Positions 23,006-24,725 of a stretch of 64,000 nucleotides of DNA are shown here, in pieces. The notes under the pieces are model-generated. The model was given only the letters and a program-made list of their open reading frames with translations, was not told the origin of the DNA and did no database searches. Made by a program: the position numbers and the translations under genes. Each line of letters opens with the position of its first letter. Position 1 is the first letter of the stretch. Source of the DNA: Liquorilactobacillus mali (lineage in GTDB: Bacteria > Bacillota > Bacilli > Lactobacillales > Lactobacillaceae); contig NZ_JQAR01000011.1 of NCBI RefSeq assembly GCF_001437155.1, positions 1 to 64,000 on the forward strand. The letters are read 5' to 3'.

Positions 23006-23614
23006 CTACTCACTCTTACTGATTTCCTTTTTTATGCGGTACACAGTACCATGACTAATTCCGTATTTGGTGACAAGTTCTGCTACGGAGTGTCCATTAC
23101 TGAGATCTTTTTTTATCGCAAAATAAATTTTTCTTTTCTGAGGGTTTGGTGAATTAGCACCATATAGAACGGGGCGTCTATAAAGGACGTCCCGTTTTTT
23201 TGCTAGTGCAATTCCCTCTCTCTGGCGCTCCTTAATTTTTTCACGTTCACTTTGAGCTTGAAATTTGAACACGGTCACTAAAATATCGGTTAACATATTT
23301 CTTAAATTTATGTCTGGAACATTTGAAAAGTCAGGTAAGTCTAGACTCTGCAGTGACGCGCTCTTTTTTTTAATATACTGAATAATTTCTGTTAAATCAT
23401 CAGCATTTCTTCCAAGACGATCTAGACTTGTAACATAAACAATATCATTTTTTTTAATACACTTTAATAAATTTAAAAGTTCAGAGCGGTTATTAATATT
23501 CTTTCCAGATTCTTTTTCCGAAAAAATTTTCTCTACTGGAATTTTTTTAAGCTGTTCAATTTGTCGCGCTAAGTTCTGATCTTTTGTAGATACTCGTACA
23601 TAACCAAATTTCAT
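23006..23614 (-). CDS. Serine recombinase (invertase/resolvase family)
   Basis: The 202-residue protein matches small serine recombinases. It has the N-terminal catalytic Ser in FGYVRVSTKDQ, the YVTSLDRLGRN motif with the active-site Arg residues, a long E-helix region (QAQSEREKIKERQREGIALAKK) and a C-terminal helix-turn-helix (SVAELVTKYGISHGTVYRIKKE). Size fits Hin/Gin-type invertases and Tn3-type resolvases. No transposase or inverted-repeat transposon ends are visible nearby. It is divergent from the EAL gene, and the 394-bp gap between them holds two copies of a palindrome that could be its crossover sites. ATG 23614 is the likely start; its RBS is weak. Confidence 0.9.
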   Translation of the reverse strand: MKFGYVRVSTKDQNLARQIEQLKKIPVEKIFSEKESGKNINNRSELLNLLKCIKKNDIVYVTSLDRLGRNADDLTEIIQYIKKKSASLQSLDLPDFSNVPDINLRNMLTDILVTVFKFQAQSEREKIKERQREGIALAKKRDVLYRRPVLYGANSPNPQKRKIYFAIKKDLSNGHSVAELVTKYGISHGTVYRIKKEISKSE

Positions 23615-23641
23615 ATAATAACATCCCAAATAAATAATTAT

Positions 23642-23651
23642 GAATATATTC
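23642..23651. repeat. Perfect 10-bp palindrome near the recombinase start
   Basis: GAATATATTC is a perfect palindrome 28 bp upstream of the recombinase start. It may be a binding site for the recombinase or another regulator, but AT-rich palindromes this short also arise by chance. Confidence 0.3.
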
Positions 23652-23680
23652 GTATTTTTCTGATATTCATATTCTACTAT

Positions 23681-23690
23681 GGGTAGACCC
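23681..23690. repeat. Candidate recombinase crossover site, copy 1 (GGGT-AG-ACCC)
   Basis: GGGTAGACCC has 4-bp complementary arms around an asymmetric AG dinucleotide, the layout of a serine-recombinase core. The second copy at 23889-23898 has CT at the centre, so the two are in inverted orientation. With flanks, both read TGGGT-NN-ACCCTAAT. Confidence 0.4.
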
Positions 23691-23706
23691 TAATTAACAT
23701 GACTTT

Positions 23707-23735
23707 ACTATAGAATAGGACTTTATGAATGTCAA
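23707..23735 (-). promoter_or_regulatory. Near-consensus promoter pointing at the recombinase
   Basis: Read on the minus strand, TTGACA (23735-23730), a 17-bp spacer and TATAGT (23712-23707) form a strong promoter about 95 bp upstream of the recombinase start. It lies inside the segment bounded by the two GGGT-NN-ACCC elements. Confidence 0.65.
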
Positions 23736-23822
23736 ACAAGCTTTAAAATTAAAAATATAGTGTGCATATTCAATGAATTTAAATGCGATTTCTCAAATAA
23801 GTGGTAAAAAATGATTATTTTT

Positions 23823-23850
23823 TTGTTACAAATCGATATGCATTTATAAG
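23823..23850 (+). promoter_or_regulatory. Weaker promoter pointing at the EAL gene
   Basis: TTGTTA (23823-23828), a 16-bp spacer and TATAAG (23845-23850) lie on the plus strand about 160 bp before the EAL start. A hairpin at 23864-23896 sits just downstream and could dampen transcription. Confidence 0.4.
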
Positions 23851-23863
23851 AATTATTGAGAAA

Positions 23864-23896
23864 GTAGGCCCAAAATAATTTCAATTTTGGGTCTAC
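23864..23896. repeat. 13-bp hairpin overlapping crossover site copy 2
   Basis: GTAGGCCCAAAAT and ATTTTGGGTCTAC pair with a single G-T wobble around AATTTCA. No T-tract follows on the plus strand, so it is not a typical terminator. Its right arm contains most of the second GGGTCTACCC element. Confidence 0.5.
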
Positions 23897-23898
23897 CC
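23889..23898. repeat. Candidate recombinase crossover site, copy 2 (GGGT-CT-ACCC)
   Basis: GGGTCTACCC is the exact reverse complement of the element at 23681-23690, 208 bp away. As with Hin-type sites, orientation would be defined by the central dinucleotide. Confidence 0.4.
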
Positions 23899-24008
23899 TA
23901 ATAAAAAATAGATTCAATGGTTATATTTTTCTATCAAAAGATGTCTAAATAATTTATAAAAAAGAATATCTTACTTTGGAAAGTTTGGTACAAGGAGGTA
24001 TTACTCCA

Positions 24009-24725
24009 GTGAACATTAAAAACAATGAATGTAGCAAAAGTTTGCTAAATAATTTATTTTTTTGCTTGCAGCCAATTATTAGAAATGGTGATGATAGCAA
24101 TATAAATGAATATGAGTTACTCCTAAGAAGGAAAAAAGATCAAAAGTTTCCTGAAGTTGAATTTGAGTATCTGAGTCAAAACAACAACAGGAATGAATTG
24201 TTAATGGCGTGGAGCTACAGAGAAATTCAAAAGTTCTTGGAACTAAATACGCAGTGTCTACTATGGATAAATATTAATCCTCAACAGCTTTCCTTTAATT
24301 CGACATATTTATTTTTGAAAAGCCTAAAAAAGTTCAGAAAAAATATCAAGATAGAAATAACAGAGCAGATTCCTGATAAAGGGGTGGATAAAAGTACAAG
24401 TCTAAGTTGTATACGCAAGATAAGGGAAATGGAATATGAAGTTGCAATTGATGACATCGGAATGGGCCTTAATACGCTTTCATTTGTGTTAGAAAATATT
24501 ACGCAAATTAGCAGGTTAAAGTTATCACTAGTTTCTCTTAGGCTGTTAAACCAAGAAGAGCTGATACTATTAATTAAATTCTGGAAGTTAGTTGCGAATG
24601 AAGCTAAGCTAGAACTTGTGGTTGAGGGAATTGATTCTGAGGAATTAAGAGTACTGGTTTCAAACATTGGTATTACAATGCAGCAAGGTTTTTTATGGGA
24701 AAACGAATTTAAATATCTTTACTAA
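24009..24725 (+). CDS. EAL-domain c-di-GMP phosphodiesterase
   Basis: The 238-residue protein is a stand-alone EAL domain, which hydrolyses c-di-GMP to pGpG. The signature is ELL in EYELLLRR instead of EAL, but the metal and catalytic residues look present: Asn in WININPQQ, Glu in IEITEQ, the Asp pair in AIDDIGMG, Lys in RLKLS, Glu in VVEGID and a final QQGFLW. Activity is likely but not certain, because the usual K-x-D after loop 6 reads KLS. The start is GTG at 24009, nine bases after a consensus AAGGAGGT. No GGDEF partner lies in the window. It is divergent from the serine recombinase. Confidence 0.85.
   Translation: MNIKNNECSKSLLNNLFFCLQPIIRNGDDSNINEYELLLRRKKDQKFPEVEFEYLSQNNNRNELLMAWSYREIQKFLELNTQCLLWININPQQLSFNSTYLFLKSLKKFRKNIKIEITEQIPDKGVDKSTSLSCIRKIREMEYEVAIDDIGMGLNTLSFVLENITQISRLKLSLVSLRLLNQEELILLIKFWKLVANEAKLELVVEGIDSEELRVLVSNIGITMQQGFLWENEFKYLY

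Follow-up and report, generated by a model that had tools for sequence, protein, structure and literature searches.

The window, which is the whole stretch of DNA that was analyzed (64,000 nucleotides), contains a small serine recombinase gene and a gene for a predicted c-di-GMP phosphodiesterase in divergent arrangement, with a pair of oppositely oriented short sites between them. The locus has the following features:

23006 to 23614, minus strand: Sin-like small serine recombinase, 202 aa, with its ATG at 23614 (Pfam Resolvase, E 2.5e-31)
23170 to 23194, no strand assigned: 25-bp micro-inversion in the recombinase gene, by which residues 142-147 change from GVYKGR to DVLYRR
23681 to 23690, plus strand: recombinase-side crossover site GGGT-AG-ACCC (GGGTAGACCC), core AG at 23685-23686
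23687 to 23892, no strand assigned: putative invertible segment, 206 bp between the 2-bp cores, which aligns to Lactobacillus sp. UCMA15818 solely as the reverse complement
23707 to 23735, minus strand: predicted outward promoter TTGACA-N17-TATAGT, 11/12 consensus, facing the recombinase in the window
23869 to 23891, minus strand: hairpin adjoining the EAL-side site, weakly terminator-like
23889 to 23898, minus strand: EAL-side crossover site GGGT-CT-ACCC (GGGTCTACCC), in opposite orientation, core CT at 23893-23894
23992 to 23998, plus strand: Shine-Dalgarno sequence AAGGAGG of the EAL gene, assigned from the sequence
24009 to 24725, plus strand: predicted EAL-domain c-di-GMP phosphodiesterase, 238 aa, GTG start (Pfam EAL, E 2.6e-19)

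A first-pass annotation had described the GGGT-NN-ACCC pair with cores AG and CT, a 198-bp interior between a minus-strand serine recombinase and a plus-strand EAL gene, and a TTGACA-N17-TATAGT promoter pointing at the recombinase. The sites lie where it had placed them, the two Pfam matches bear out the identity of the genes, and the promoter (minus strand, 23735-23707) is the top match of the region. The interior measures 198 bp from arm to arm and 206 bp from core to core.

The recombinase has Ser9, Arg7, Arg43, Arg66 and Arg69, all of them residues that a catalytically active enzyme is expected to have. Among PDB structures it best matches Sin (2r0q, E 5.6e-40); the alignment spans residues 2-197 and takes in the C-terminal DNA-binding domain. 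The L. mali recombinase matches the same structure at E 1.6e-42. Gin and Hin structures match at E about 1e-11 and rank far below Sin and gamma-delta. By full-length homology the enzyme is of the Sin/Tn552 type and is not closest to Hin/Gin, the type that the first-pass annotation had invoked. Five orthologues are 69-94% identical. A profile scan of viral contigs found no relative of the recombinase, and 444 plasmid records retrieved in the recombinase search were rejected as orthologues, all being below 60% identity.

The EAL protein, when aligned to 3kzp, Bd1971 and its orthologues, retains the catalytic positions E (of the EAL motif), N, E, D, D, K, E and Q, and is predicted to hydrolyze c-di-GMP. 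The genome encodes two GGDEF proteins, whose contig also carries a family 2 glycosyltransferase and a further EAL protein; flagellin genes lie elsewhere, and no PilZ domain was found in the genome. The GGDEF proteins, the glycosyltransferase and the flagellin genes make an output of c-di-GMP on polysaccharide or motility plausible. In L. acidophilus, c-di-GMP genes affect exopolysaccharide and co-aggregation (PMC6123363). A congener that has no orthologue of the recombinase (G010) carries an in-frame RelA_SpoT and EAL fusion of 307 aa (L120:4744-5667), in which the N-terminal part of a small alarmone synthetase is joined to the C-terminal half of the EAL protein. This fusion apparently arose by deletion of everything between the two, the switch included.

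The pattern GGGTNNACCC has two copies in the 64-kb window compared to 0.14 expected, a count reached in 2 of 100 shuffles. Pattern searches of the 2.44-Mb genome, the source of all genome-wide site counts given here, found seven copies of GGGTNNACCC, and the exact 10-mer GGGTAGACCC at this locus only, one per strand. Arms that are identical over 10 bp only, as they are in the window, count against an inverton. An inverting serine recombinase requires equal, non-palindromic 2-bp cores. The eight loci whose sites are of the Liquorilactobacillus type have AG or AA cores, identical within each pair and none of them self-complementary; the half-site consensus of these loci, read outward from the core, is A-C-C-C-(T/A)-A-A. 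The Lacticaseibacillus sites, not placed in register with this alignment, are outside the count.

Related palindromes occur elsewhere in the genome. Three of the five other copies of GGGTNNACCC have the form GGGTATACCC, with a self-complementary TA core, and are located directly upstream of other serine recombinase genes or fragments; they sit inside terminator-like hairpins, so that they lend the sites only weak support. Upstream of other serine recombinase genes or fragments of this genome, terminator-like palindromes with a TA core read GGCCANTAGGGTATACCCTANTGG (L118:1501, L119:246 and L115:1501). Within the window, a near-perfect palindrome, TATGAATATATTC(A/G)TA, lies at approximately 23639-23654, between the recombinase-side site and the recombinase gene, and is perfect in L. 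mali. It is possibly an operator, an accessory site or a basal promoter.

The genome of the window belongs to a Liquorilactobacillus that stands close to L. mali. Divergent recombinase and EAL genes with the site pair between them are found in five Liquorilactobacillus species, the arrangement of the window recurring in L. mali (G006), Lactobacillus sp. UCMA15818 (G012), L. ghanensis (G005) and a further congener (G001). Aligning this region in relatives and looking for both orientations was the check that had been proposed for the locus, and both exist, in two Liquorilactobacillus pairs. The comparison uses the DNA between the two cores, with one assembly per species. The segments of the window and L. 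mali have the same orientation (198/206 identical), while that of UCMA15818 aligns to the window as the reverse complement (172/208, z 24.1, against z 2.7 for the direct alignment). The flanks of these two loci are in place, with 44/45 positions identical on the recombinase side and 32/49 on the EAL side. After the junction TATTCTACTAT-GGGT-AG-ACCC, the window continues with TAATTAAC and UCMA15818 with AAAATTGAAATT, which in the window stands at the opposite end of the segment.

The segments of L. ghanensis and G001 are also mutually inverted (z 14.4 versus 4.0 direct). Their sites are GGGT-AA-ACTC and GGGT-TT-ACCC, and the variant half-site ACTC moves with the promoter end, lying beside the recombinase in L. 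ghanensis and beside the EAL gene in G001. Between species, the outer half-sites are fixed and the inner half-sites swap with the segment. Because ACTC travels with the promoter end and the outer half-sites stay, exchange is placed at the central 2-bp core. Together these alignments provide strong comparative evidence that the window and L. mali versus UCMA15818, and L. ghanensis versus G001, represent independent inversions with fixed flanks.

The predicted promoter is conserved in position. Its position and direction were compared over the eight loci of the site consensus, except that L. mali stands in for the second Oenococcus. Seven of the eight have a TTGAC[A/G] hexamer at 48-50 bp from the core and O. 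oeni has none; the -10 matches behind this conserved -35 vary in quality and spacing. The promoter points to the recombinase in the window, L. mali, L. ghanensis, L. sicerae and Ligilactobacillus ubinensis, and to the EAL gene in UCMA15818 and G001. Judged by consensus match only, its direction changes with the orientation of the segment, as would be expected if inversion turned it toward the EAL gene, which the first-pass annotation had proposed. That annotation was largely right: promoter inversion stood, and the Hin/Gin type did not; nor did a weaker promoter already facing the EAL gene, since at the thresholds used no plus-strand match was found within the segment or over the last 100 bp ahead of the EAL gene. 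A basal recombinase promoter outside the segment was sought by eye and none was established; a TATATATTCA-like stretch upstream of the recombinase gene is shared and is only suggestive of one. At the segment end equivalent to that of the window's hairpin, L. ghanensis and G001 have strong hairpins (-21 and -16 kcal/mol), while that of the window is weak. A hairpin at the end opposite the promoter may insulate the silent gene.

We consider it highly probable that the 206-bp segment is an invertible promoter (inverton), and that the adjacent recombinase flips the promoter between itself and the EAL gene. This reading draws on the position of the recombinase next to a site pair that is otherwise absent from the genome of the window, and on the retained catalytic residues of the EAL protein in a genome that encodes two GGDEF proteins. 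The opposite orientations of sister species very probably mean that the c-di-GMP enzyme has a self-encoded on/off switch. Comparison across the loci establishes, at the level of sequence, inversion with fixed flanks, exchange at the core and a conserved outward promoter, whose activity is a prediction.

In the proposed mechanism, the Sin-like recombinase would cut both GGGT-NN-ACCC sites at the 2-bp core and rejoin them with the segment reversed. In orientation R, that of the window, the promoter would transcribe the recombinase, and the EAL phosphodiesterase would be off or low. In orientation E, transcription of the EAL gene would start from the same promoter, with some 130 nt of leader, and the recombinase would be left without its main promoter, so that return from this orientation would need a basal recombinase promoter. 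With the promoter serving only one of the two genes at a time, the segment would flip readily out of the recombinase state, and the EAL state would be more stable. The adjacent recombinase is the presumed actor, and flipping within one strain would be expected together with this feedback. The consequences would presumably extend to c-di-GMP and hence to surface or exopolysaccharide traits and motility.

The recombinase of the window has a peculiarity of its own. At 23170-23194, the coding strand of the relatives matches the plus strand of the window, and small inverted repeats bound the inverted 25 bp. GVYKG[RK]P is kept in all five orthologues, and Sin has GVYKGRP. In the Sin and gamma-delta complexes, helix E enters the minor groove (PMC2428073), and we infer that the GVYKGRP motif corresponds to the end of this helix, the exact residue mapping included. 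The recombinase of the window may be impaired and the switch in this strain locked; alternatively, the micro-inversion may be an assembly error. With a motif altered that even Sin shares, switch activity in the window strain is uncertain.

Beyond Liquorilactobacillus, a contig scan with the recombinase alignment found relatives in Oenococcus oeni, Lig. ubinensis, L. sicerae, several Lacticaseibacillus and Furfurilactobacillus. The related recombinase adjoins the site pair in Liquorilactobacillus, Oenococcus, Ligilactobacillus and five of the six Lacticaseibacillus loci seen. Five Lacticaseibacillus loci carry a 338-bp segment upstream of the recombinase, in one orientation in L075 and L078 and in the other in L076, L077 and L079, next to a gene for a collagen-binding surface protein of roughly 1500 aa. 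As reverse complements these segments are identical at 329-337 of 338-339 positions (best 337/338), with flanks identical at 57-60/60 and 78-80/80. This near-identity across species suggests that the module spread recently, and the set is therefore taken to show recent flips and not many independent ones.

The targets of the segment differ among these relatives. In O. oeni and L. sicerae, the target is the first gene of a WxL-type surface-protein operon; the L. sicerae gene has no Pfam match, and its neighbor encodes a WxL-interacting protein. In Lig. ubinensis, the target is a large secreted protein, followed by WxL genes. UCMA15818 has WxL and WxL-interacting-protein genes after the EAL gene, and L. 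ghanensis has, by reading, similar-looking genes beside the recombinase; the stretches in these two species are L038:7763-9396 and L040:6740-8390. These WxL-type neighbors may link c-di-GMP turnover with the WxL surface complex. By reading of ORFs, the switched surface-protein operon of L. sicerae adjoins a flagellar gene cluster (L072:1118-4889).

In the recombinase tree, O. oeni, L. sicerae, Lig. ubinensis and both EAL-linked groups form one clade of eight (support 96/99), within which the two EAL-linked groups are separate sub-clades; at least one exchange, gain or loss of the target would accordingly have taken place. The recombinase clades correspond to the site variants. On balance we lean toward a broader view in which a Lactobacillaceae lineage of Sin-like resolvases became a family of self-encoded promoter invertases. 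In such a family, one promoter would serve exclusively the recombinase or the target, each flip to the target would cut recombinase transcription and make the switch asymmetric, and the targets would alternate between surface adhesin complexes and c-di-GMP phosphodiesterases.

Other explanations were weighed against the inverton. A resolvase-derived recombinase might flip the promoter very rarely, over evolutionary time only, leaving strains effectively fixed with no phase variation. The comparisons are all between species, the recombinase of the window has a change in a conserved motif, and enzymes of the Sin type act mainly as resolvases (PMC2428073), yet inverted Lacticaseibacillus segments are up to 99.7% identical, so that their flips are recent, and the site pair, promoter position and core identity are kept across genera; we regard this explanation as unlikely. 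It is more doubtful still that a different recombinase inverts the segment in trans, with the adjacent plasmid-type resolvase as a bystander. Other serine recombinases are encoded in the same genome, and the recombinase of the C. difficile pdcB switch had not been identified (PMC9286219), but the recurrence of the related recombinase beside the site pair across genera, and the way in which recombinase clades and site variants go together, argue against it. A reading of the repeats as static operators or terminators between divergent genes, to which the short near-palindromes, the adjoining hairpin and the similar GGGTATACCC palindromes within terminator-like hairpins elsewhere in the genome would conform, is ruled out almost completely by interiors that are reverse-complemented between fixed flanks in three separate genome sets, in Liquorilactobacillus and Lacticaseibacillus. 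Homologous recombination between 10-bp arms was rejected as implausible on general knowledge.

An inverton at this locus would add to the phase variation of second-messenger enzymes, by which many traits are changed with one DNA flip. A phase-variable enzyme of this kind has been shown in C. difficile; here it would occur in food-associated lactobacilli of the wine and cider type with a compact cis-encoded module. At about 1.7 kb in all, the module (recombinase, two sites and one shared promoter) is small enough for work in a laboratory Lactobacillus or in E. coli, and it provides an independent switch of the serine-recombinase kind. Searches of the open-access literature turned up no account of the locus. 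In a survey of gut invertons, invertase genes were generally not placed under inverton promoters, with one potential exception (PMC11892184), and feedback through a promoter that drives either recombinase or target is unusual by that standard.

Several known systems resemble parts of this one. The pdcB (Cdi2) and pdcC switches of C. difficile also set the expression of an EAL phosphodiesterase by an invertible promoter, on a segment of 174 bp that is similar to the 206 bp here (PMC9286219). However, the pdcB switch has 19-bp inverted repeats, which are 840 bp away from pdcB, and had no recombinase identified in that study (PMC9286219), whereas the window encodes a serine recombinase beside the segment and a promoter common to both genes. 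Sin, Tn552 BinR and beta-type recombinases are the best full-length sequence match, C-terminal DNA-binding domain included. Sin itself is a resolvase that acts at an 86-bp res site with accessory site II and requires its accessory sites (PMC2428073), in contrast to the inverted sites and promoter inversion seen here. The Hin/Gin invertases (hix, gix) and Bacteroides Mpi share the 2-bp core exchange and the inverting promoter segment; the present enzyme matches Gin and Hin structures much more weakly than it does Sin (E about 1e-11 versus 1e-40) and is encoded outside the segment. The msa promoter of Lactiplantibacillus plantarum is also invertible, in the same family and with a surface phenotype, but no dedicated recombinase was identified there and its target is an adhesin and not a signaling enzyme (PMC8493755). 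Invertible promoters are thus already known, including one for an EAL gene in C. difficile (PMC9286219) and one in L. plantarum (PMC8493755). What appears to be new is the combination of a Sin-like promoter invertase beside its segment, a promoter common to invertase and target, and a c-di-GMP locus in a lactobacillus.
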